Assembly (NCBI GenBank): GCA_002712765.1
Contig: PAUP01000087.1
Location: 1 to 37,026 of the forward strand
Direction of reading: 5' to 3'
From: Cytophagaceae bacterium
GTDB lineage: Bacteria > Bacteroidota > Bacteroidia > Flavobacteriales > Flavobacteriaceae
DNA: 37,026 nucleotides
Shown in pieces: positions 23,339 to 37,026 of this stretch; the stretch's first letter is position 1; each line of letters opens with the position of its first letter. The position numbers and the translations under genes are program-made. Below the pieces are notes generated by a model. It was not told the DNA's origin and did no database searches. It saw nothing but the letters and a program-made list of their open reading frames with translations.

Positions 23339-26300
23339 TTGCTACCCCTGACACATAAGTTATACATAGCGTTGATGTTGTTTTTTGTCCAATTTTTAGG
23401 CGCTCAATCGGACAATATTTACCATGAAGTTTTTACCAAAAAAGACGGATTAGAAATTCAAGACGCCTTGGCAATAGCTATTGATGACGATGGCTTTGTT
23501 TGGTTAGGCGGTTCTGATCTAGATCAGAGAAATATCATAGAAAGCGATCAGGAATTATTTATTCAACGCTTTGACGGGCATAACTTTCACAAATTTGATT
23601 TGCCTATAGGGCGTTTTAAGTATACCGCGGTAGATCACTTTTATAAACGCAAAGACGGCAGCTTTTTTATCAGAGCCAAAACGGCGAGCAATACCGCAGA
23701 GCTATTAGTATTCGATCCCGTAACAACCCTATTTGAGCACCTTCCCATTCATAGCAAATCCGGAAAAATTGAGAGTGTATCTAAGATCTTTCTCCATCGC
23801 GATAAAGAGTACATTTTAATACAACAAGGTGATGTAATAACCCTTAACCGTATTGAAGATGGGCTACACTTTGTACCTGTTTTTAGCTTTACCCTTGATG
23901 TAGGTAGTAAATACGCCATCGATGCCACAACGGCTGTAATTTTTACTGAAGAATACATTTTGATAGGAGATGATAATTTTCCGTTTACCTATTTTGATTG
24001 GGAAGGACGACAACTAAACCAAATAGCCAGCGCCAGCTTTGCACCTAATCGAGATGCCGATATTGTTAAATTTATGGCAGAAGAGGTAGTGGAGATTGAG
24101 GGTAAACCTTGTTTGTTTATCAACAACGAAAAGGCTTTGTATACTGTGTCTAACAAAGGGTATGCATTAGAAGCATTAGAAGGAGATGCGCGTACCAATA
24201 CCAGAGCCGCTTTAAAAACCCTTAATGATCGTTTTGGAAATCATATCATCGCCACTGCAGACGATACGGGGCTGGGTGTATTTAAAATGACAGCAAACGG
24301 TAGACAAGTGCTCTATGCAGGAAAAGTCCTCGCAGGGACACCTGCCTTGAAATTGGCTTCTAAAGACTTGGAAAAAGATTTTTGGGTATTTACCAATCAA
24401 GGGGAGTTGCATTATTTTAAATTTCCGCCCAAAACGATTAAAAATTATTTGACAGATGCTGGTCTCAGACGCATCGTATCATTAGATAAGAACAATTATC
24501 TAATCGCCACAGACAGCGATGGTTGGTACACGATGAACAAGCAAACCCATGAGCTTTCGCCCTATAAACTTACCTTAAAGGGAAAGGCTATACAGCCGCG
24601 ATATAATCGCAATCTCATTGTAGAAAATCAAGTAATTTGGAGTAATAGCGCTAGTAGTATTATTAAGATTAATCGTCAAGATCAAAGTGTAGAGCGCTTT
24701 AGAAGATACCCTGTCGCTTGTTTAGAGCGGCCCACAGATTCGACCATCATTTATGGTACCAATCGCTATAATTTGATGGAATTTAATACCAAATCAGAAT
24801 TGCACAGGGTATTGCTCAAAACAGATACGCTCGAATTTTTTGATATGGTCTTAAACCCTGAGAAAACAAAAGCTATTTGTGCTACAGACAAGGGGTTGCT
24901 GGTGTATAATTTGAAAAATAAAAAGCATACTTTTTACGACAACAAAAAGCTGGATGATCCCTTTTTGCTTACCATAACTTATGATGCGCAAAGGGGCTAT
25001 TTACTGGGAAGCCGATCAGGAAAAATCATCAGATACACCGATAAGACAAAGGAGTTAGAAACGGTGTATTCTGACCCCTTAAAGGCAGGAATTGCGGGTA
25101 TTCTCTTTGACGACAAAGGCCAATGGTGGGTCAATACTTTTAATGGATTAGTCGTATTAAATCCTGAGCGCGAGATACTCAATCGATTTTCAGTAACCGA
25201 TGGATTGTCAGATAATGAAGGCAATCGATACAGCGCCCTCAGAACAGATAAGGGGATGTTTTTTGGTGCGATTAGAGGGCTCAATTTTTTTGATCCAGAC
25301 ATCTTACAGCCTACAACATCAGAAGCACAGCTCGAGGTGATGCGTATTCAGGCTTTTGATGAGAATAGCATGTCCTATCAAGAAAATTACAACCGAAAGT
25401 ATTTGCGCAAATCCACCAATAATAGCAGGGGTTATCAACCTATTAAAATATCTTCCGAAAACAGGAGCTTAGAGGTAGATTTTGCCCTGACAAACATGAG
25501 CGTAACACGAGAAGAACAGTATCAATATCGCATTAATGGAGATCAGTGGGTGCCACTGCGGTCATCTCCTACACTACAATTTTCTAATCTTGAGGCCGGG
25601 CAATATGCGCTGGATTTGCGATCATTAAATTTTGCAGGAAAACCCATCGGTAAAACCTTGACGCTTTTTCTGGTAGTAGATAATTTCTTTTACAAAACCT
25701 GGTGGTTTTATTTGCTCATTTTATTGGCGAGTATTGGTTTGATAAGCTGGATGTTTTATCAGCAACGACTTCGTAACAAACTACAAATACAATTTGCTCA
25801 AAACCTTTTGCAGTCGCAAGAAGAAGAACGCACTCGTATTGCCAAAGAACTTCACGATAGTGTGGGGCAACAACTCACTCTGATAAAAAAGAAGGCTCAG
25901 GTTTTAGAAGATGCTGAGGTGGCAGGACTCACCCATAGAGCGCTGGAAGAAGTAAGGACAATTTCTCGGGGCTTATATCCTGCCTTATTGCGTCAGGTTG
26001 GCCTTAGTGGAAGCATTGAGCAATTGCTCTTGGATGTAGACGAACAGACCGAGTTATTTGTCTCTGTAGAGATTGAAGATGTAGACGCCTATTTTAACGA
26101 GCAACAGGCGCTTAATTTGTATCGTTTTGTACAGGAGAATGTGACTAATGTGATCAAACATGCACAGGCCTCTACGCTGTTGGTGCGAATGGTTCTCAAT
26201 TCTTCAAAAGCGGCAGTACTTGTTGAAATATCAGATAATGGAAAGGGGTTTGATCAGGTAGAGACGCAAAAGAAAAATTCACTGGGTTTAAAAACCATGC

Positions 26301-26392
26301 AGGAACGCATACATATGTTAGGCGGATTTTTTATCTTGGAAAGTAATGAGCAGACAGGTACGAGAAGTATTGCCGAAATACCCCTAAAATGA
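23339..26392 (+). CDS. Propeller-sensor histidine kinase (HisKA_3)
   Basis: A 1017-residue membrane histidine kinase. An N-terminal signal (MLPLTHKLYIALMLFFVQFLGAQ) leads to a periplasmic sensor of about 640 residues with propeller-type repeats (DDDGFVWLGGSD, DDKGQWWVNTFNGLVVLN, TDGLSDNEGN), then a Y_Y_Y-type domain (about 690-775), one membrane segment (about 787-808, WWFYLLILLASIGLISW), a HisKA_3 dimerisation domain with phospho-acceptor His839 in KELHDSVGQQ, and a HATPase domain (ENVTNVIKHAQA, DNGKGFD, SLGLKTMQERI). The start is a TTG; an in-frame TAG lies at 23333 and the first ATG (23374) would cut off most of the signal peptide. It overlaps its response regulator by ATGA. Similar kinases sense polysaccharides or envelope signals in Bacteroidota. 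Confidence 0.92.
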   Translation: MLPLTHKLYIALMLFFVQFLGAQSDNIYHEVFTKKDGLEIQDALAIAIDDDGFVWLGGSDLDQRNIIESDQELFIQRFDGHNFHKFDLPIGRFKYTAVDHFYKRKDGSFFIRAKTASNTAELLVFDPVTTLFEHLPIHSKSGKIESVSKIFLHRDKEYILIQQGDVITLNRIEDGLHFVPVFSFTLDVGSKYAIDATTAVIFTEEYILIGDDNFPFTYFDWEGRQLNQIASASFAPNRDADIVKFMAEEVVEIEGKPCLFINNEKALYTVSNKGYALEALEGDARTNTRAALKTLNDRFGNHIIATADDTGLGVFKMTANGRQVLYAGKVLAGTPALKLASKDLEKDFWVFTNQGELHYFKFPPKTIKNYLTDAGLRRIVSLDKNNYLIATDSDGWYTMNKQTHELSPYKLTLKGKAIQPRYNRNLIVENQVIWSNSASSIIKINRQDQSVERFRRYPVACLERPTDSTIIYGTNRYNLMEFNTKSELHRVLLKTDTLEFFDMVLNPEKTKAICATDKGLLVYNLKNKKHTFYDNKKLDDPFLLTITYDAQRGYLLGSRSGKIIRYTDKTKELETVYSDPLKAGIAGILFDDKGQWWVNTFNGLVVLNPEREILNRFSVTDGLSDNEGNRYSALRTDKGMFFGAIRGLNFFDPDILQPTTSEAQLEVMRIQAFDENSMSYQENYNRKYLRKSTNNSRGYQPIKISSENRSLEVDFALTNMSVTREEQYQYRINGDQWVPLRSSPTLQFSNLEAGQYALDLRSLNFAGKPIGKTLTLFLVVDNFFYKTWWFYLLILLASIGLISWMFYQQRLRNKLQIQFAQNLLQSQEEERTRIAKELHDSVGQQLTLIKKKAQVLEDAEVAGLTHRALEEVRTISRGLYPALLRQVGLSGSIEQLLLDVDEQTELFVSVEIEDVDAYFNEQQALNLYRFVQENVTNVIKHAQASTLLVRMVLNSSKAAVLVEISDNGKGFDQVETQKKNSLGLKTMQERIHMLGGFFILESNEQTGTRSIAEIPLK

Positions 26393-27036
26393 ACAAAGAA
26401 GAAATAACTTTACTCGTTGCAGATGACCATCCTATGTTACTCAAAGGCCTCGTCGACACTTTAAACGAGGCACAGTACCGAGTAATCGAAGGTGTTAGCA
26501 ATGGTGCTCAGGCAGTAGCTAGCATATGTGAGCAAAATCCAACGATTGCCCTATTGGATATAGAAATGCCCCTTTTATCGGGTTTTGAGGTGATTAGTAA
26601 GTGTCGGGAAGCCCATGTAACTACGAAGTTTATTATTCTCACCTCTCATAAAGAAAAAGGTTTTGTACATCAGGCCAAAAAATTAACTATATCTGGGTAT
26701 TTGCTTAAAGATGAACCCTTTGAGGAAATCGAGCGATGTATTGATGCTGTCGCGAAAGGAAAAACATACTTTAGCACTACGTTTGATGAGATATTTGCTC
26801 GGGAAGTCAATCCTCATCTCGAGAAAATTAAATTTTTGTCTCCCTCAGAACGTACCATCGTGCGATTGATTGCGCAGGAGAACTCATCAAAGGAAATCTC
26901 TGAATTGCTTAGTATATCAACACGAACGGTAGAAAAACACAGGGCAAACATCATTGCCAAACTAGACTTAGAAGCAGGTACCGATTCTTTGACTCATTGG
27001 TCACTTGAACACCGCGAACTTATACTTTCGCTTTAA
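26389..27036 (+). CDS. NarL/LuxR family response regulator
   Basis: A 215-residue DNA-binding regulator, the partner of the upstream kinase. The receiver domain has the acidic pair in VADDHPML, phospho-acceptor Asp57 in LLDIEMPLLSGF, the Thr/Ser switch in ILTSHKEKG and the Lys in YLLKDEPFEE. The C-terminal LuxR helix-turn-helix is LSPSERTIVRLIAQ to STRTVEKHRANI. It overlaps the kinase gene by four bases. The next 116 bases carry three TACGTA sites and a -7 box before the HYR-like gene, so this cluster is its likely target; that is inference. A degenerate palindromic word (GCTGTCGCGAAAGGA, 26746-26760) occurs within the gene. Confidence 0.95.
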   Translation: MNKEEITLLVADDHPMLLKGLVDTLNEAQYRVIEGVSNGAQAVASICEQNPTIALLDIEMPLLSGFEVISKCREAHVTTKFIILTSHKEKGFVHQAKKLTISGYLLKDEPFEEIERCIDAVAKGKTYFSTTFDEIFAREVNPHLEKIKFLSPSERTIVRLIAQENSSKEISELLSISTRTVEKHRANIIAKLDLEAGTDSLTHWSLEHRELILSL

Positions 27037-27152: not shown

Positions 27153-30100
27153 ATGGGGGAAATTACGCGTTACGCGCTACTGGCATTATTTACTTTATTT
27201 ACATATGTTGCTACAGCTCAGGACACTACAAATCCAGTAGCTGTGTGTACAGACATCAGCATTGACCTCAATGCCCTAGGTATGGCCATGATTACTGGCG
27301 CCGATATAGATGGAGGCTCTACCGATGACACGGCTATTGTTTCTAGAACCGCTAGTCCTAATACTTTTGATTGTACCAATATTGGTACTCCTGTTATGGT
27401 GACCTTAACAGTGACCGATGCAGCAGGTAATAGTGACAGTTGTACGGCAACAGTCACGGTAAATGATCCTATTGCCCCAACAGCTATATGTCAGGATATT
27501 ACCCTAACTCTTGATGCCATGGGTATGGCAAGTCTTCTACCTTCAGATCTCGACGGTGGCTCTACCGATAATTGTACAACCCTGCTTACTTTTACAGCTT
27601 CGCAAACCACTTTTGATTGTAGCGATATTGGTGCTCAGACAGTCACTCTAACGGTTGAAGATGACCAGGGTAATAGTGACAGTTGTACGGCAACAGTTAC
27701 GATAGAAGACAATACCCCACCTACCATTAGTTGCACTGATATAAGTTTGGTGCTAGACTCTGCTACAGGCATGGTGACCATAGATCCTAATGCTTTAGCA
27801 CAAGTGACGGCTAGTGATGGTTGTGGTAGCACAACTATCACCGCAAGCCAAACGACCTTTGGCTGTGACGATGTACTTAATGTTCCCGTTAATGATTTGG
27901 TGCTAACAGGTGTGTTTCATGGATCGCTCACCGAAGACCTTATGGATCCTACCCCAGATATTGTAGATGTATTTCAAGGGGTAGAACTCTATGCTTTACA
28001 AGATATTCCAGATTTGTCTCAATATGGCTTGGGCGTGGCCAACGATGGTGGCGGTACCGACGGGCAGGAGTACAGCTTTCCGGCGGTCTCTGTTACAGCA
28101 GGAAGTTTTATTACTGTAGCGTCAGAAACCGCTAACTTTAATCGCTTTTTTGAAACAAATCCAAGTTTTGTAACCCCGATAATGGATATTGATGGAAATG
28201 ATACCGTAGAACTCTATTTTACAGGTAATGTCATTGATATTTACGGTGATCCCAATGTTAACCCTACAGCAGATCCTATGGTATCTGTGGCTTGGGACTA
28301 TACGTTAGGTTGGGGATATCGCAAAGGAAATCGAGGTCCAGACGGGACGAGTTTTATTTTGGATAATTGGTTTTTTAGCACCCCTGGAGCTCTAGACCAA
28401 GATGAAAATGCCACCAATGCTACTACGCTGGTACCTTTTCCATTAAGCGTTTATGTGAGTATACAGGAAGGGGTTCTATCACCATTGATGGTTACCTTTA
28501 CCGCTACAGACACTAGCGGCAATAGCGCCGATTGCATCGCTTTGGTAACTGTTCAAGATACCACGCCTCCTATTGCCATTGCTCAAGACCTCACCGTGAT
28601 GTTAGACATCAATGGGGAAGCCTTTATTGACGTTAATGCCCTAGACAACGGGTCTAGTGATTTGTGTGGTATAGCCTCACGTATTGCCGAGCCAAGTGGT
28701 TTCTTTTGTGATGAGGTGGGGAATAATACCGTCACCCTAACAGTGACAGATGTGTACGACAATATCTCTACAGCCACAGCAACAATTACAGTGATTGACA
28801 ATATACCGCCTACTATGGTGTGCGAAAATATTACCGTCCAATTAGACGCTACGGGTAATGTCACTGTAGACCCCGATCTGGTAGGTGGAGGATCGAGTGA
28901 TGTTTGCGAAATCGTAACCACATCCTTAAGCACAGATACTTTTGACTGTAGTCAGGTAGGAACAAATACAGTATCCTTTACCGCTACAGACACCCATGGG
29001 AACTCGGATACCTGTACTGCCGTAATAACGGTTGAAGACAATATTGCACCTGAAGTCGTTTGCCAGCCAGTCACCTTACAACTCAATGCTATGGGTATGG
29101 CCACTTTGACACCTATGGATATCGATGCTGGAAGTACAGATGCCTGTGGTATTGCTACGAGATCTATTGATATAAGTAATTTTGACTGTTCTCATCTAGG
29201 AACCAATGATGTCGTACTTACAGTCACCGATGTTAATGGCAATGCGGCAACATGTACTGCGGTGGTCACCGTCGAAGAAAGTATCAGTCCAACCGCTATT
29301 GCTATGGATATTACCATAGGAATTGGCACCACAGGATCAACCACGATATCTGGATCGGATGTAGATAATGGATCGTCAGACAACTGTAGTATTGCTACGT
29401 TGACGGTTTCTCCAAACACTTTTACCTGTTCTGATACTGGAGCTCCAATTCCGGTTGTACTTACCGTAACAGATAGTTCTGGTAATTCTAGTACCGCATC
29501 TGCCAATGTAACCGTGGTTGACGATGTGCCTCCTTCGGCAATTTGTCAGGATATAACTTTGGCCCTAGATGCCACAGGCAATGCAAACATAACGGTTGCT
29601 GATGTAGATGGGGGGAGCAGCGTGTCTTGTGGAACGTTCTCTGCAAGTATTGATGTAAATGCTTTTAATTGTTCCCAATTAGGCCCCAATAATGTGGTAC
29701 TCACAGTAACCAATACAAATGGGGTGAGCCGTTCTTGTACAGCTGTTGTGACGGTTGTAGACAATGCCGCACCAACTGTTATTTGCCAAGATATAACGGT
29801 TGTTCTAGATGCCAGTGGGAATGCCACTATTACAGCAGCCGATATTGACAATGGAAGTACCGATAACTGTGGTGTTGGGACGTCCTCGCTTGATATTACC
29901 ACTTTTGACTGTGACGACGTAGGAATAAATCCAGTAGTTCTTACTGTGACCGATGTTAATGGCAATGCTAGTAATTGTACAGCTCAAGTGACGGTTATAG
30001 ATGATGTACCGCCCACAGTGGCTTGTCAAAATATCACAGTACAACTTGATGCTAATGGTCTTGCGAATATTGATGCGCTCGCCGTAGATGCAGGGAGTAC

Positions 30101-31250
30101 TGATTTTTGTGGTGTTGCTTCTAGAAGTATAGACATAGACTCTTTTGATTGTTCTGATTTAGGTGCCAATACGGTAGTACTTACTGTAACAGACACCTCA
30201 GGAAATATGGCGAGTTGTAATGCGATTGTTACTGTCGAAGATATCGTGGCCCCTACTGTGGTCTGTCAAAATATCACCGTACAACTAGATGCCTCAGGGA
30301 CAGCTATTATAAATGCCACCGATATCGACAACGGTAGTAGTGATGCCTGTGGTATTGCCACTATTGATGTAGATAACACCTTGTTTGGATGCGCAAATAT
30401 TGGATCCAATACCGTCATTCTATCTGTGACGGATGTTAATGGAAACACCAGTACTTGTCCTGCCATAGTTACCGTCGAAGATAGTGTGGCTCCTGCCATT
30501 TCTTGTCAGGATATCACAGTGCAGCTCGATGCGGCTGGTACAGCAAACATTACTGTTTTTGACATTGATGGGGGGAGCACAGATGCCTGTGGGATCGCTT
30601 CTTCTTCAATAGACGTTACAGCATTTGATTGTGATGATGTTGGGATCAACAGCGTTACACTTACTGTATCTGATGTGAATGGAAATGTATCAAGCTGTGT
30701 TGCATCTGTAACTGTACAAGATGTCGAAGATCCAGTTATTGATTGTCCAGGAACACTTACCCAATCTATAACGACAGGATCACTTTATGATGTTCCAGAT
30801 TTTCTGGCAGCTGCAATCATCACTGCAAATGATAATTGTTCTACCACACTGACAACCATTACACAGTCGCCAGAGATTGGCGCACAGTTGGCAGAAGGAA
30901 CTTATGCAGCTTCACTCACGATCCAGGATGAAAATGGCAATCAAGAATCTTGTGTATTTACATTGGTAGTAACAGATACCGCACTAGGTGTCGAAGAGAA
31001 TCTGCGACCAAACCCGATTCGCATATATCCTAATCCTGCGCAATCACAAATTGTTTTAGAAAGTGAATACGCTTTAGAAATAGAACAGGTTCGGTTTTAT
31101 GATTTAACAGGTCGCTTGGTCAAATCTGTAGCGCTCAATAAGGCGCAACACCTTACTATCATTGATGTTTCCGAATTAGCCGTGGCAACTTATATGGTTG
31201 AGATTACAGCCAATGGTAAAGGTCAAATACAACAATTAATAAAAAATTAA
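27153..31250 (+). CDS. Giant HYR-like repeat surface protein with T9SS signal
   Basis: A 1365-residue secreted protein. Signal peptide MGEITRYALLALFTLFTYVATAQ, then 12 tandem Ig-like repeats of about 80 residues (27222-30722). Each starts near P-T-x-x-C-Q-D-I-T, carries GSTDxCG and FDCxxxG, and ends LTVTDVNGN..CTAxVTVxD. A 13th, divergent unit (30723-30977, PVIDCPGTL) looks like a true HYR domain. Repeat 3 is split by a lamin-tail-like domain (27891-28487; LVLTGVFHG, IPDLSQYGLG, AWDYTLGWGYRKG). The C-terminal about 85 residues (IYPNPAQSQ, DLTGRLVKS) are a type A T9SS sorting domain. It is likely a long adhesive stalk on the cell surface. It is first in a same-strand cluster reaching the window end, and follows a two-component system. 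Confidence 0.9.
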   Translation: MGEITRYALLALFTLFTYVATAQDTTNPVAVCTDISIDLNALGMAMITGADIDGGSTDDTAIVSRTASPNTFDCTNIGTPVMVTLTVTDAAGNSDSCTATVTVNDPIAPTAICQDITLTLDAMGMASLLPSDLDGGSTDNCTTLLTFTASQTTFDCSDIGAQTVTLTVEDDQGNSDSCTATVTIEDNTPPTISCTDISLVLDSATGMVTIDPNALAQVTASDGCGSTTITASQTTFGCDDVLNVPVNDLVLTGVFHGSLTEDLMDPTPDIVDVFQGVELYALQDIPDLSQYGLGVANDGGGTDGQEYSFPAVSVTAGSFITVASETANFNRFFETNPSFVTPIMDIDGNDTVELYFTGNVIDIYGDPNVNPTADPMVSVAWDYTLGWGYRKGNRGPDGTSFILDNWFFSTPGALDQDENATNATTLVPFPLSVYVSIQEGVLSPLMVTFTATDTSGNSADCIALVTVQDTTPPIAIAQDLTVMLDINGEAFIDVNALDNGSSDLCGIASRIAEPSGFFCDEVGNNTVTLTVTDVYDNISTATATITVIDNIPPTMVCENITVQLDATGNVTVDPDLVGGGSSDVCEIVTTSLSTDTFDCSQVGTNTVSFTATDTHGNSDTCTAVITVEDNIAPEVVCQPVTLQLNAMGMATLTPMDIDAGSTDACGIATRSIDISNFDCSHLGTNDVVLTVTDVNGNAATCTAVVTVEESISPTAIAMDITIGIGTTGSTTISGSDVDNGSSDNCSIATLTVSPNTFTCSDTGAPIPVVLTVTDSSGNSSTASANVTVVDDVPPSAICQDITLALDATGNANITVADVDGGSSVSCGTFSASIDVNAFNCSQLGPNNVVLTVTNTNGVSRSCTAVVTVVDNAAPTVICQDITVVLDASGNATITAADIDNGSTDNCGVGTSSLDITTFDCDDVGINPVVLTVTDVNGNASNCTAQVTVIDDVPPTVACQNITVQLDANGLANIDALAVDAGSTDFCGVASRSIDIDSFDCSDLGANTVVLTVTDTSGNMASCNAIVTVEDIVAPTVVCQNITVQLDASGTAIINATDIDNGSSDACGIATIDVDNTLFGCANIGSNTVILSVTDVNGNTSTCPAIVTVEDSVAPAISCQDITVQLDAAGTANITVFDIDGGSTDACGIASSSIDVTAFDCDDVGINSVTLTVSDVNGNVSSCVASVTVQDVEDPVIDCPGTLTQSITTGSLYDVPDFLAAAIITANDNCSTTLTTITQSPEIGAQLAEGTYAASLTIQDENGNQESCVFTLVVTDTALGVEENLRPNPIRIYPNPAQSQIVLESEYALEIEQVRFYDLTGRLVKSVALNKAQHLTIIDVSELAVATYMVEITANGKGQIQQLIKN
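27222..30977 (+). repeat. Array of 12 HYR-like repeats plus one divergent unit
   Basis: Units of about 240 bases, diverged in DNA but clear in protein. Most carry four cysteines: C1 near the start, C2 in TDxC, C3 in FDC, C4 near the end. Units 4 and 7 lack both C1 and C4 but keep C2 and C3; unit 1 lacks only C2. Confidence 0.88.
27891..28487 (+). other. Lamin-tail-like domain inserted into repeat 3
   Basis: About 199 residues inserted between C3 and C4 of the third repeat: the repeat breaks after NVPV and resumes at MVTFTATDTSGNS. Landmarks VFHGSL, VELYALQDIPDLSQYG, NDGGGTDGQEYSFP, ASETANFNRFF, AWDYTLGWGYRK and GPDGTSF match the LTD pattern of secreted Bacteroidota proteins. The frame is kept on both sides. 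Confidence 0.75.
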
Positions 31251-32478: not shown

Positions 32479-35400
32479 ATGAAAAAATTACTACAATTTG
32501 TATTGATTCTCTTGGCAATAACAGCCTATGCTCAGACCGATGGCTTGAGTTATCAAGCAGTTATTATAGATCCTAACCCTCAAGAGATTCCTGGTGCCGA
32601 TGTATCCGGAAATATATTGCCTAATGCAGCTGTGGCTGTTCGATTTACCATAGCTGGAGTGTCTGGAAACCAAGAGTATCAGGAAATTCAAAATACCTCT
32701 ACCGATGCTTATGGAATGATCAATGTGATCATTGGGCAAGGGGTGCCAACAGGAAGTAATCGATTTGATGAAATTATTTGGGACGGACAACGCAAGACTT
32801 TAAAAGTCGAGATTAATCTGGATGGCTCATATACCGATTTAAGCCTTCAAGTTTTGACTTTTGTGCCCTATTCTTTTCACAGAGATATTACGGCTACAGG
32901 TAATGTCATTGTAAATGGTGCTGTCGAGTTTAGAGGTGATCTTACAGTTGATGGTACGACCAACCTAAATAATTCTCTAACAGTAAATAGAGGGAAGCCT
33001 ACTGTGTTAACAGGGGATCTCTTTGTAGAACAGCAAACGATTTTAAACGGAAGTTTGGATGTAGAAAACCAAAGCCCTACTGCACTAAGTGGCGCTTTGA
33101 CTGTTGATGGATTTACTCGTTTCAAAGATCAATTGACCGTAGAAGGTGAAACAGTATTAAATGATGCGCTTAGCGTCGATGGCGCTTCTACCTTAAATGG
33201 GACTTTATACGTAAGAGATCAGACTACCTTAAATAATAATTTGACGGTAGCCCAGCAAGCGCCTACACTCTTGACAGGTAGTCTACAGGTAGATCGACAA
33301 ACTAATTTTAATGATGATGTTAATATCAATAATAGCGCAGCTTTAAACGTTAGTGGTGAGCTAAATGTTGGAGGTAACACGGTTTTTGATCAAGATTTAA
33401 CGGTCAATGGGAATACCAACCTCAATAATTTCCTCAATGTAAATAACGGGAGTACAACCACACTCACAGGAACCCTTCATGTCGCCAAAGAAACCGTGTT
33501 ACAAAACAGTCTACAGGTTTTTGGACAGACAAATTTGGAAGATGCCTTAAATGTGAATCAACAAAGTCCTACGCTTTTAACTGGCGGATTAACTGTAGAT
33601 CTCGAAACAAATCTCAATAGCAGTTTGGTGGTCAATAATGGTAGCCCGACCTTATTATCTGGTGACCTCGATGTTGGAGGCAATGTGAATCTCAATAATA
33701 ATCTATCGGTCAACGGAATTACCAATTTAAATGATGATGTCTTTGTCAATAATGGTAGTACCTCAACCTTGACGGGGCCGCTAAATGTTGATGGTCCAGC
33801 CGATATGAACAACACATTAATCGTAGACGGCATCACCACCCTTAATGACCAATTAACTGTAGCCAATGCTAGCGCTACATTGCTTACCGGAACCCTTACC
33901 GTAGATCAAGCAACCACCTTAAATAATGATTTGACCGTTGCCAATGGGACATCTACTACGCTCACAGGAACACTAAGCGTAGATGGCATTACTAGCCTTA
34001 ACAACGATCTTAATGTGACCAATGCCAGCCCTACAAATTTGTCTGGAACACTGGCCGTGGACGGCACAACGTCGTTAAACAACGATGTGACGGTCACCAA
34101 TGGAAGCAGTACTTCCTTAAGTGGTACACTTACAGTAGACGGTCTTAGTACCTTAAACAATGGTCTAACAGTGGTAAACGCAAGTCCAAGTAGTCTTAGT
34201 GGGACCCTAGAAGTAACAGGTGCAACGACCTTTAATAATACGCTCACTGCGAATGCTCCGACCTTGATTGATAGTGATCTTACGGTCACTGGAAGTACAA
34301 CAGTGGGGAGTTTAAGTACGCGTACAGTAGCTATTGAAAGTAATGATCCAGGTTTTGTAGCAAGCTTTGAAAATACCAATTCAGATACAGGTGACGGTAT
34401 CGTTATTAAATTGGGGCGTCTTCATGGTGCTTTTAACGACGGATCATTAACTGGACCAGGAAGTGCAACAGGAACAGATGGATTACTAGAGTTACCTAAC
34501 CCCATCGCCAGTGATTACCAAAGCGGTATCAATTTACTCAAAGACAAGTTTAGAAATCCGTCACCATTGACTTTTTCTGATATTGAGGCATTAGCTCCGA
34601 GTCTCGTTAAAGTTGGGGCTATTAATAACCTTAACAATCAAATATTTGAGGCATTTAATAATCAACTCCCTAATGTACCGTTGCCAGAGGTAAAATTACC
34701 AGATATTCCTTTATTGACAGGACGAACCATTTTTCCAGGAGCCGAAATTCCCTTCTTAGGTATTACGATTCCTGCCTGGAGATTTCCTGAACTGGCGATA
34801 GACGGTGATGCATTTCCAAATTTGCTCAACGCGCAAAACGACATCATCCCAAATTTGCCAATCAATTTAAATACCAGTGGTTTAACTGATATTGCCTTTC
34901 CTGTGATTGCGATTGCCGATTTGGCCAATGGGAACAGTTTGACTAAGGCTAATAAATTTATTTCTTTTCAGGACAAGGACGGAAGACAGCTAGGCGCTAT
35001 ACAGGCCGAATCTTTAAAAGACTATAAGGATAGAACCATTTGTAATCCAGTATACCTCCATGAACTAATTTCAAAATTTATTGGTATTGATGCGCTAAAG
35101 GATGTAGCCGAAGGAGCTGCAGCTCTTACTCAGGCTATCGACGACTTTAATAATTTTGGTGTTGAGTATGCTTCTGGTAATGGTGATTATGCCGAATGGC
35201 TAGAACGTGAAGATCCAGACGAATATTTAACAGCAGGAGATATTGTGGCGGTCAAAGGGGGTAAAATTACCAAAGACTTGACCGATTTAGAACAGATCAT
35301 GGTTGTTTCACACCGCCCTATAGTTTTAGGAAATGTACCAGAAGCCGATAAAACGCATCTGGGTAATAATGTGGCATTTATGGGCCAAGTTCCTGTAAAA

Positions 35401-35718
35401 ATCATGGGAGCGGTATACTCTGGTGATTATATCGTTGCAGATACACAAATACACGGCTATGGGAAAGCTATAGCCCCTAGAGATATGACAGCCGCCGATT
35501 TCAAAAAAGCTGTAGGAAGAGCCTGGCAAGAAAATGTAAATCCGGGGCCAAAAATGGTAAACACCGTTGTAGGTATTCACAATGGAGACTGGGTAAAGAT
35601 TATCCAAAAAATTGAGCAAAAGCAAAAGGCCTATGAGCAGCAATACAAAGAATTAGAATTACTTGTATCAAAGCTCGATCAAAAGGCCGATGCTATCATC
35701 ACTGGAACTAACGACTAA
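32479..35718 (+). CDS. Fibre-like protein with 26-residue repeats
   Basis: A 1079-residue exported protein I cannot name. Signal peptide MKKLLQFVLILLAITAYAQ; an N-terminal beta domain (about 20-140; LSYQAVIIDP, YGMINVIIGQG, LTFVPYSFH) of a kind common in Bacteroidota surface proteins (usually ending VPYALYA). Residues about 154-614 are near-perfect 26-residue repeats made of a 12-residue part (LTVDGTTNLNN) and a 14-residue part (LTVNNGSPTLLSG), likely a beta-solenoid. Then a Pro/Leu-rich region, a segment FISFQDKDGRQLGAIQ (about 825), and GNGDYAEWLEREDP to VVSHRPIVLGN (about 900-950), resembling tail-fibre C-terminal chaperone (Peptidase_G2-like) domains. The last 44 residues are a coiled coil. 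No T9SS signal is visible. Confidence 0.85.
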   Translation: MKKLLQFVLILLAITAYAQTDGLSYQAVIIDPNPQEIPGADVSGNILPNAAVAVRFTIAGVSGNQEYQEIQNTSTDAYGMINVIIGQGVPTGSNRFDEIIWDGQRKTLKVEINLDGSYTDLSLQVLTFVPYSFHRDITATGNVIVNGAVEFRGDLTVDGTTNLNNSLTVNRGKPTVLTGDLFVEQQTILNGSLDVENQSPTALSGALTVDGFTRFKDQLTVEGETVLNDALSVDGASTLNGTLYVRDQTTLNNNLTVAQQAPTLLTGSLQVDRQTNFNDDVNINNSAALNVSGELNVGGNTVFDQDLTVNGNTNLNNFLNVNNGSTTTLTGTLHVAKETVLQNSLQVFGQTNLEDALNVNQQSPTLLTGGLTVDLETNLNSSLVVNNGSPTLLSGDLDVGGNVNLNNNLSVNGITNLNDDVFVNNGSTSTLTGPLNVDGPADMNNTLIVDGITTLNDQLTVANASATLLTGTLTVDQATTLNNDLTVANGTSTTLTGTLSVDGITSLNNDLNVTNASPTNLSGTLAVDGTTSLNNDVTVTNGSSTSLSGTLTVDGLSTLNNGLTVVNASPSSLSGTLEVTGATTFNNTLTANAPTLIDSDLTVTGSTTVGSLSTRTVAIESNDPGFVASFENTNSDTGDGIVIKLGRLHGAFNDGSLTGPGSATGTDGLLELPNPIASDYQSGINLLKDKFRNPSPLTFSDIEALAPSLVKVGAINNLNNQIFEAFNNQLPNVPLPEVKLPDIPLLTGRTIFPGAEIPFLGITIPAWRFPELAIDGDAFPNLLNAQNDIIPNLPINLNTSGLTDIAFPVIAIADLANGNSLTKANKFISFQDKDGRQLGAIQAESLKDYKDRTICNPVYLHELISKFIGIDALKDVAEGAAALTQAIDDFNNFGVEYASGNGDYAEWLEREDPDEYLTAGDIVAVKGGKITKDLTDLEQIMVVSHRPIVLGNVPEADKTHLGNNVAFMGQVPVKIMGAVYSGDYIVADTQIHGYGKAIAPRDMTAADFKKAVGRAWQENVNPGPKMVNTVVGIHNGDWVKIIQKIEQKQKAYEQQYKELELLVSKLDQKADAIITGTND
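32938..34320 (+). repeat. 26-residue (78-base) repeat array in the first fibre gene
   Basis: Some 15 or more units. The basic unit is 12+14 residues; a few places have an extra 12-residue half unit (38-residue spacing). Conserved: V/N before G or D, LNN in the half unit, and T-L-L/S-G at the end of each unit. Confidence 0.85.
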
Positions 35719-35728
35719 TCAGTAAATT

Positions 35729-37026
35729 ATGAAAAAGCTATTTCTTTTACTCATTTGTTTGGTCGGTCTTCAAGGTTGGGCTCAGGTAGATGCTTTGAGC
35801 TATCAAGGTGTGATCATCAATCCAGACGATCAAGAATTACCAGGTGTTAACAAAGCTGATAATTTTTTGTCCAGAACCGATATACAGGTGCGATTTACAA
35901 TAATTGATGCGACGGGTAACGATTTATACCAAGAAACACATCAAACACGTACAGATCGATTTGGGATGTTTAGTCTTAGAATAGGTCAAGGCATGCCAAT
36001 AACTGCTTCTCTGTTTACAGAGATTAATTGGGACGGTATTCCAAAAAATCTCAAAGTTGAGGTAGCGATAGAAGGTGATTTTGCCCTATTAGATACAAAA
36101 GAACTCACCTTTGTACCCTATGCTTTTCACAGGGATATCTTTGCAAGTGGGATGATGAGTGTAGCTGGTACAACCTTGTTTCAAGACGATTTATTGGTAC
36201 GAGGTATGACCCAACTCAATGATACCCTATCTGTAAATAATGGAACACAAACTGATCTTACGGGCACCCTCACTGTAGATCAAAATAGTGTACTGGGCGG
36301 CTCACTTGATGTGACAAACCAACATCCTACGCAAATGACTGGAAGTCTAACCTTAGAAGGAAACGGACAACTCAACGACCGTCTTACTGTAGAAGGGCAA
36401 ACCAGCTTAGAGCGCACATTGGAGGTCAATGCGTCTACTAGACTTAAGACTACTTTAGATGTAAATGGGGCAACTACCTTAGCCAATGATGTAGCAGTAA
36501 TTGAAGGGAATGATACACGACTCACAGGGACACTTACTGTTGAGGGGGAAACCAACCTTAATAGTGATGTGACCATAAATAATGGCGGTGCTCTTAATCT
36601 ATCTGGTGATCTTACGGTGTCTGAGGCTACTGTCATAGACGGCACTATGACCGTTAATAGATTTACCAATCTCAATAAAAATTTAAGTGTTAATAACGGT
36701 GAGCCAACGGCTTTTACTGGAATGCTTCTAGTTGATGGTCAAACAACATTAGAAGATAGTCTCTTTGTGAGTAAAGAGACCAATCTCGAAAATGTGTTAA
36801 GGGTTAATAATCAAATGCCAACCTATCTTTCTGGTACACTTCAAGTAGATTTGGCCACTACCCTAAACAGTGCGCTCAATGTTAATAATGGTAGCAATAC
36901 AGAATTAACAGGGCCTTTAAATGTTCAAGGGATGATAGATTTTGGCAACGATCTCACAGTAGCAGGGCGTACTAATTTTAATGATGATCTCTTTGTCAAT
37001 AATAATGCAACTACTGCCATGTCGGG
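35729..37026 (+). CDS. Second fibre-like protein, 3' partial
   Basis: Open from ATG 35729 to the window end (432 full codons, no stop). Signal peptide MKKLFLLLICLVGLQGWAQ; N-terminal domain (DALSYQGVIINP, FGMFSLRIGQG, LTFVPYAFHRDI) clearly paralogous to the first fibre gene; from about 36150 the same repeat type (TLTVDQNSVLGG, LTVEGETNLNSDV, LNVNNGSNTELTG). The C-terminus lies outside the window, so a chaperone-like end can only be predicted. The gap to the first fibre gene is ten bases, so the two are probably one transcript and more copies may follow. Confidence 0.88.
   Translation, partial: MKKLFLLLICLVGLQGWAQVDALSYQGVIINPDDQELPGVNKADNFLSRTDIQVRFTIIDATGNDLYQETHQTRTDRFGMFSLRIGQGMPITASLFTEINWDGIPKNLKVEVAIEGDFALLDTKELTFVPYAFHRDIFASGMMSVAGTTLFQDDLLVRGMTQLNDTLSVNNGTQTDLTGTLTVDQNSVLGGSLDVTNQHPTQMTGSLTLEGNGQLNDRLTVEGQTSLERTLEVNASTRLKTTLDVNGATTLANDVAVIEGNDTRLTGTLTVEGETNLNSDVTINNGGALNLSGDLTVSEATVIDGTMTVNRFTNLNKNLSVNNGEPTAFTGMLLVDGQTTLEDSLFVSKETNLENVLRVNNQMPTYLSGTLQVDLATTLNSALNVNNGSNTELTGPLNVQGMIDFGNDLTVAGRTNFNDDLFVNNNATTAMS
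36153..37026 (+). repeat. Repeat array in the second fibre gene (partial)
   Basis: Same 12+14-residue pattern as in the first fibre gene, more diverged, running past the window end. An LTGTLTV-type junction recurs about every 78 or 114 bases. Confidence 0.8.

Follow-up and report, generated by a model that had tools for sequence, protein, structure and literature searches.

The stretch of DNA analysed here (the window) is the entire 37,026-base contig PAUP01000087.1 (C87) of the Cytophagaceae bacterium assembly GCA_002712765.1, a genome of 2.77 Mb in 107 contigs that is 78% complete. The end of the window carries two adjacent genes for fibre-like proteins, preceded by a gene for a likely outer-membrane beta-barrel and, before it, by a gene for a small protein with a sorting tail of the type IX secretion system (T9SS), here called the adaptor (Table 1). 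The complete fibre protein appears to be built of an N-terminal domain (N domain), a repeat shaft, a presumed tip and a chaperone domain of the Peptidase_G2 family (G2). No tRNA and no tandem DNA repeat were found in the window.

Table 1. Features of the fibre locus, with positions in the window
Feature	Coordinates	Strand	Description or evidence
Adaptor, 164 aa	31290..31784	+	Conserved front region, then T9SS type A sorting tail; TIGR04183, PF18962
Likely outer-membrane beta-barrel, 223 aa	31787..32458	+	Family matches below cut-offs
Fibre gene 1	32479..35718	+	1079 aa: signal sequence, N domain, 12+14 repeat shaft, tip, G2 domain, terminal helix
Apparent Sec signal sequence, aa 1-18	32479..32532	+	By eye
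N-terminal domain, aa 19-143	32533..32907	+	Remote relative of Bdello_MAT_N; 19-member alignment A2
Shaft, 12+14-residue repeats, aa 144-612	32908..34314	+	Lag periodicity; phage structural and tail-fibre family matches
Presumed tip, aa 613-885	34315..35133	+	Lower conservation between closest relatives; bounds by eye
Peptidase_G2-type chaperone domain, aa 886-1050	35134..35628	+	Profile and structure-database matches
DYAE motif, aa 903-906	35185..35196	+	Invariant in 19/19; Asp aligns with first residue of 3gqh
Predicted C-terminal helix, possible coiled coil, aa 1036-1074	35584..35700	+	AlphaFold model
Fibre gene 2	35729..37026	+	432 aa seen; cut by contig end

The two fibre genes are separated by 10 bases, and the contig stops at 37026 within the second, whose frame is still open there (the residues seen are encoded by 35729-37024). 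Their products are 50% identical across residues 1-431 and have in common an N domain of about 125 residues after an apparent signal sequence; judged by eye from their N-termini, both are apparently exported, in agreement with a sequence-only reading of the window that had described two adjacent genes for exported proteins with the same N-terminal domain. They are the sole two matches in the genome, as far as this incomplete assembly goes, and a search of a contig collection with the single fibre protein gave only 2 loci. The closest named relative found is in UBA3611, a Flavobacteriaceae metagenome genome (51% identity in the best segment, with residues 1-1074 matched). At loci L055, L034 and L003, from the genomes G151 (of the same genus as the window), G078 and UBA3611, a second fibre gene is present that is complete and ends in G2. 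The G2 domain of fibre gene 1 is 69-76% identical to those of the first genes of these loci and 58-61% to those of the second genes, so that the duplication looks older than the split of the window, G151, G078 and UBA3611 loci, judging from identities rather than from a tree.

The 12+14-residue repeat proposed from the letters alone was recovered as self-similarity in both proteins at lags of 12, 26 and 38 residues. Residues 150-610 of protein 1 gave peaks at lag 26 (z 17.6), 38 (z 13.5), 52 (z 10.1) and 12 (z 9.8), with a highest shuffle value of z 3.9, and residues 145-432 of protein 2 at lag 38 (z 10.4), 12 (z 8.9) and 26 (z 8.8), with a shuffle maximum of z 4.7. The repeat matches phage structural and tail-fibre families of PHROGs (best 2e-17). 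Between the closest relatives the identity of the tip, at 26-62%, is lower than that of the shaft (48-64%), the N domain (50-69%) and G2 (58-76%), a low conservation that fits what may be expected of a binding tip. Part of the repeat region of the window protein also aligns, at 28% identity, with a stretch of a Candidatus Peribacteria contig (L004:4677-5549).

No enzyme family other than G2 exceeded its cut-off in family-library scans of the window proteins, and the possibility raised at the outset, that the full protein belongs to a characterised enzyme family, was rejected on this ground. Bactofilins and hexapeptide acyltransferases are beta-helical proteins; the matches of protein 2 to bactofilin (E 5e-4), hexapeptide acyltransferases (E 0.018-0.09) and YceI, all below the cut-offs, were ascribed to a common beta-helix or beta-rich build. 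The lone match of the whole protein 1 to solved structures (E 0.38) was taken as chance. Foldseek returned 0 matches at E <= 0.001 for the N-terminal model, which means little given the quality of that model.

The C-terminal part of protein 1 had been described as resembling the chaperone domains of phage tail fibres plus a coiled coil, with Peptidase_G2 as one of the families suggested, and the suggestion was right: the excised domain scores 26.0 bits with PF11962 (gathering cut-off 25; the whole protein, at 19.9, lies below it), and a helix is predicted at residues 1036-1074 with a confidence (predicted local distance difference test, pLDDT) of about 53 to 78 in blocks of ten. Peptidase_S74 has no match in fibre protein 1 at E <= 1. 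In a 19-member alignment of this end (A1), Peptidase_G2 is recovered at E <= 0.01 from 18 sequences, the strongest at 2.6e-9, and four of the five matches of the A1 profile to solved structures at E <= 10 are phage tailspike proteins or their chaperone ends, namely the Dpo31 chaperone D4 (E 0.0012), whole Dpo31 (0.029), the phi29 gp12 chaperone 3gqh (0.056) and whole gp12 (0.32). In the window protein G2 sits at the C-terminus of a repeat-shaft fibre. G2 is present in 14 of 149 genomes of the family of the window and in 16 of 395 genomes of a phylum sample, and in 13 of those 14 it lies on the same protein as the N domain, the protein of the fourteenth (G019) being cut at the contig start. The proteins that carry both (n=18) have 638 to 1135 residues, the two domains being separated by a segment of about 217 to 783 residues.

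Asp903 aligns with the Asp that opens the crystal chain of the phi29 gp12 chaperone (3gqh), which is the predicted cleavage point. For phi29, the mature appendage has been modelled up to residue 691 (PMC6542822), and a serine is given as its last residue (PMC4690869). Self-cleavage of G2 ahead of Asp903 is therefore plausible in the window protein, and it is not assured, since the residue preceding Asp is Gly or Ala in 19/19 members and Ser in phi29. It can also be the case that G2 is no autoprotease here and remains on the fibre for good as a C-terminal trimer clamp, a serious contender that we nevertheless hold to be the less probable. That substitution speaks for it, as do the 111 to 129 residues found past G2 in 10/19 members (only 19 in the window protein), which would be lost on cleavage, whereas the invariance of DYAE and the fact that Dpo31 chains likewise have Ala or Ser ahead of the motif speak against it. 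The catalytic residues of G2 were not found in the literature searched.

A likeness to phage structural proteins is seen in G2 and in the repeat alike, and the fibre genes might therefore be the remnant tail fibre of a prophage or of a contractile injection particle. This we regard as very improbable indeed, given the apparent signal sequence, the absence by eye of any phage structural gene among the open reading frames of the window, and the recurrence of the cassette in many genera. A tblastn search of 50,697 phage records with the C-terminus gave no match, and no relative of the N domain was confirmed among 19 matches to the single short pattern used on viral contigs. G2-type ends do occur there, with 3 confirmed among 25 pattern matches; one of these, on the 313-kb viral contig L067 (3219-5396), is a G2-related end on a 725-residue fibre-like protein that adjoins a long open frame.

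The N domain shows remote kinship to the N domain of the mosaic adhesive trimer (MAT) proteins of Bdellovibrio. The NCBIfam model Bdello_MAT_N gave 17.5 and 23.8 bits with the two window proteins (E 0.0028 and 3.2e-5), matched 12/19 members of alignment A2 at E <= 0.01, and was detected in 31/100 family genomes at E <= 0.001 and in 62/395 phylum genomes at E <= 1e-5. A single genome can have as many as 14 such places, and the 14 control genomes have none at either threshold. The significant E-values together with the empty controls suggest a remote kinship, and the proteins are called here MAT-like without being filed as members. A match of the N-domain profile to solved structures (E 0.47) and one of a single N domain to alcohol dehydrogenase (E 0.0076) were both taken as chance. 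Cell-encoded MAT fibres with swappable tips and chaperone ends have been described in Bdellovibrio bacteriovorus by Caulton et al. 2024 (PMC10769870), and the N domain and G2 occur together in 13 family genomes, so that the build, which the sequence-only reading had taken to be new, is not new in kind.

On the evidence of these profiles, the N domain is spread across Bacteroidota on proteins with differing shafts and ends. YadA-head, S74, G2, collagen and C1q are shafts or ends of known trimers. At E <= 0.001, and among the families listed (the best 25 of 36 and the best 25 of 38), 62 uncut N-domain proteins include 13 with YadA-head, 8 with S74, 8 with G2, one with collagen and one with C1q; YadA-head and autotransporter models match 6-13 of the 62, and the matches to Bdello_MAT_N in 45/62 are partly circular, many of these proteins having been sampled by that model. 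One conserved end with exchanged tips, a trait of the MAT type, is thus found across N-domain proteins. At E <= 1 the window protein gives no hit to the membrane anchor of YadA-type (type Vc) proteins. A T9SS type A tail is encoded by 0/75 N-domain genes (62/75 uncut; type B was not profiled separately), and fibre protein 1 has no match to such a tail in the family-library scans. The lack of that tail, together with the likely barrel gene next door, would also fit a periplasmic protein, or a structural protein of the inner face of the outer membrane, that is not exposed at the surface. We consider this improbable, as ends of an exposed type (S74, C1q, collagen) occur on the same N domain among the families listed, and the MAT proteins of Bdellovibrio are surface displayed (PMC10769870).

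The sequence-only reading had placed a cell-encoded, fibre-like protein next to T9SS cargo, which is borne out by the window genes, while the two genes directly upstream had not been treated as part of the system. The adaptor matches TIGR04183 with 42.9 bits (cut-off 23) and PF18962 with 46.8 bits (cut-off 27); it precedes the barrel, which adjoins fibre gene 1 with a gap of 20 bases. In the same genome, SprA and a T9SS sortase, the latter partial and located where a contig begins, exceeded their cut-offs; the sortase model gives sub-cut-off matches in 2/14 controls. Both neighbours keep their size across relatives of this cassette (about 165 residues for the adaptor, about 220 for the barrel), and the adaptor accompanies the fibre in 15/16 G2 loci and the barrel does so in 14/16, the next neighbour families reaching 8/16 and 5/16. 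The locus with neither (L043) begins at a contig end. The order adaptor-barrel-fibre prevails in G2 loci, with barrel-adaptor-fibre in G069, G070, G132 and G140. The barrel is found at E < 1e-10 in 20/149 genomes, a count that leaves out the weak partial matches in G017, G145 and G148:C21 (E 2e-4 to 4e-4). In 19 of the 20 an N-domain gene is found downstream of it, either immediately or after an intervening adaptor gene, and in the twentieth (G019) barrel and adaptor are at a contig end. Seven of these genomes have no G2; with G065 cut by a contig end and the frame of G123 interrupted, 5 clear changes of the fibre end remain.

The adaptor itself is closely linked to N-domain genes. The best 150 listed matches of its profile in the 149 genomes comprise 35 of full length, 106 that cover the tail only and 9 intermediate ones, which were counted apart (4 near an N-domain hit). 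Among the matches listed, 29 of the 35 full-length adaptors have an N-domain hit within 2.5 kb; of the other six, five lie beside an N-domain gene in the surrounding sequence (four with that gene 5-12 bases downstream, one, G028:C2, with it on the other side at 268 bases) and the sixth, that of G019, is at a contig end, which makes 34/35 in total. By contrast, 0/106 tail-only matches are near an N-domain hit, a tabulated result and not a proof, since the list of N-domain hits is incomplete for G100-G148; three tail-only loci inspected in full (L173-L175) have no N-domain gene. Starting from the opposite side, 46 N-domain genes sampled by similarity to Bdello_MAT_N alone include 18 with a small T9SS-tailed neighbour within 150 bp, directly upstream in 15 (median gap 5 bp) and downstream in 3. 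In a wider set of 75 N-domain genes the figure is 38/75, or 43/75 after the addition by hand of L039, L046 and the second genes of three tandem pairs, a count that is biased by the inclusion of regions chosen for their barrel or adaptor; among other genes, 26/291 have such a neighbour with barrels included and 8/267 with barrels left out. The adaptor-fibre pair was not named in the literature searched, the coverage of which is limited, and we do not claim its absence from print.

As the fibre has no type A tail and the adaptor is barely more than a front region plus such a tail, the pairing suggests that the adaptor is the anchor or carrier of the fibre. Proteins with a type A tail use the PorV shuttle and are anchored at the surface or released (PMC12618676; PMC9143113). 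Several observations weigh against the overall interpretation favoured below, in addition to the residue found ahead of Asp903. No small T9SS-tailed neighbour accompanies the remaining 28 of the 46 N-domain genes, among which are all those sampled from G063 (8) and from G096 (5), and an adjacent adaptor therefore cannot be required by every such fibre. The barrel is missing from L035 (G005), which has a G2 fibre and the adaptor, and from G083 (C27), with adaptor and fibre, and its family matches stay below their cut-offs (24.7 of 27 bits and 40.9 of 135 bits). The 60-bit cut-off of Bdello_MAT_N was reached in 0/100 family and 0/395 phylum genomes (best 52.1). Finally, no confident structure was obtained with AlphaFold: the mean pLDDT is 32 for residues 600-1079 and 49 for residues 19-318, where the repeat has about 30-53 with short regular strands, a poor quality due to alignments of only 3 or 4 sequences each (those of the window and L003). 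Models of this quality do not suffice to establish the beta-solenoid that the sequence-only reading expected of the repeat, or a trimeric meandering beta shaft like that of the MAT superfamily.

The N-domain genes without neighbours raise the possibility that the proteins are trimeric surface fibres which are brought to the surface and kept there in some other way, and that adaptor and barrel are co-regulated surface proteins with tasks of their own. Bdellovibrio, which has MAT fibres, is not a member of Bacteroidota, and we know of no T9SS in it. We nevertheless judge this explanation unlikely, if with some weight left to it, because it would not account for the contrast between full-length adaptors (34/35) and tail-only matches (0/106, among the matches listed), nor for the small gap of the adaptors located directly upstream. 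Genes without adaptor neighbours are found at L129 and L131 (G063) and at L114, L125, L139 and L146 (G096); the N-domain genes of G063 lie in arrays of up to five, and some genes of G063 and G096 end, by eye, in an S74-like domain. We propose that these loci may represent a second mode of arranging or displaying N-domain fibres.

The interpretation that we favour, with a probability of about 0.6, is that the window encodes homotrimeric MAT-like surface fibres with a G2 cap, which the adaptor, here with a barrel, displays or anchors. The modular fibre, the G2 end and the close linkage to the adaptor are the steps that sequence comparisons support, and from them we infer trimerisation, self-cleavage, surface display, contact with adaptor and barrel, and adhesion. 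The chains would pass through Sec into the periplasm, where the G2 domain would start the trimerisation of shaft and tip and then cut itself off before Asp903, exposing the tip (about 613-885) as the binding end. The co-encoded adaptor, by means of its type A tail, would be carried to the surface by the T9SS, and its front region would hold the N domain, jointly with the barrel where this subfamily has one, so that the fibre is exported or anchored. The role of the tip would most likely be adhesion to other cells, algae or particles.

More broadly, and at somewhat less than even odds, Bacteroidota may possess a two- or three-part system in which a T9SS-tagged adaptor, accompanied in one subfamily by a barrel, exports or anchors tail-less trimeric fibres by their N domain and thereby frees the tip for exchange. 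If true, proteins that have no sorting tail of their own could travel by the T9SS, and a class of possible surface partners of MAT-type N domains would be identified; the Bdellovibrio paper (PMC10769870) does not settle to what part of the cell these domains attach. Adaptor and barrel are thus concrete candidates for the partner of the N domain, testable in culturable Bacteroidota, and should the adaptor prove to carry or anchor the fibre, a function could be assigned to a gene pair that is found in many flavobacterial genomes.

Upstream of the cassette, at 23339-27036, the window encodes by eye a sensor kinase and a LuxR-type response regulator; a similar pair has the same place in L055, L034 and L003, and a kinase or a tetratricopeptide-repeat protein with a LuxR-type protein is near several others. 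It is possible that this pair regulates the fibres. Between the regulators and the adaptor lies a T9SS cargo of 1365 residues made of HYR repeats (27153-31250), and large proteins that look alike by eye occupy the same position in L034 (13951-17982) and L055 (4608-8981). Downstream of the fibres, 4/16 loci have a protein of about 190-200 residues, exported by eye (L034:5777-6370, L055:16690-17265, L003:11651-12250 and L035:6908-7486), the window counterpart of which would fall past the contig end. In L036, L037, L038, L040 and L043 the fibre is followed by a protein of 1600-1900 residues and a lipoprotein-like protein of about 235 residues.

Compared with known systems, the window fibre is, by its domains, a MAT-like protein with a phi29-type G2 cap, and its build is not unique. 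It has in common with the MAT superfamily the signal sequence, a conserved beta-rich N domain (about 130 residues there), a long shaft and C-terminal tips that can be exchanged and that in some cases bear a chaperone of phage type; it differs in that its N-domain relatives, from a different phylum, never reach the NCBI cut-off, in that its chaperone is G2 and not S74, and in that a T9SS-tailed adaptor and a likely barrel are encoded beside it. With the pre-neck appendage gp12 of phi29 (3gqh, 6qz9) it has in common a C-terminal Peptidase_G2 in which D-[YF]-A-E opens the chaperone, but gp12 is part of a phage virion and lacks such an N domain, whereas the window fibre has an apparent signal sequence and relatives with Gly or Ala in place of Ser before the Asp. 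The chaperone D4 of the Dpo31 tailspike (28nb, 28lx) is the top profile match among solved structures, yet Dpo31 is a phage depolymerase in which no such N domain was matched. The surface adhesins of T9SS type B are likewise encoded beside an outer-membrane barrel partner, there of the PorP/SprF kind (PMC9143113, PMC12618676). Those adhesins, however, carry their own sorting tail, whereas here a separate small type A protein does, next to a barrel that has no PorP match in the family-library scans.

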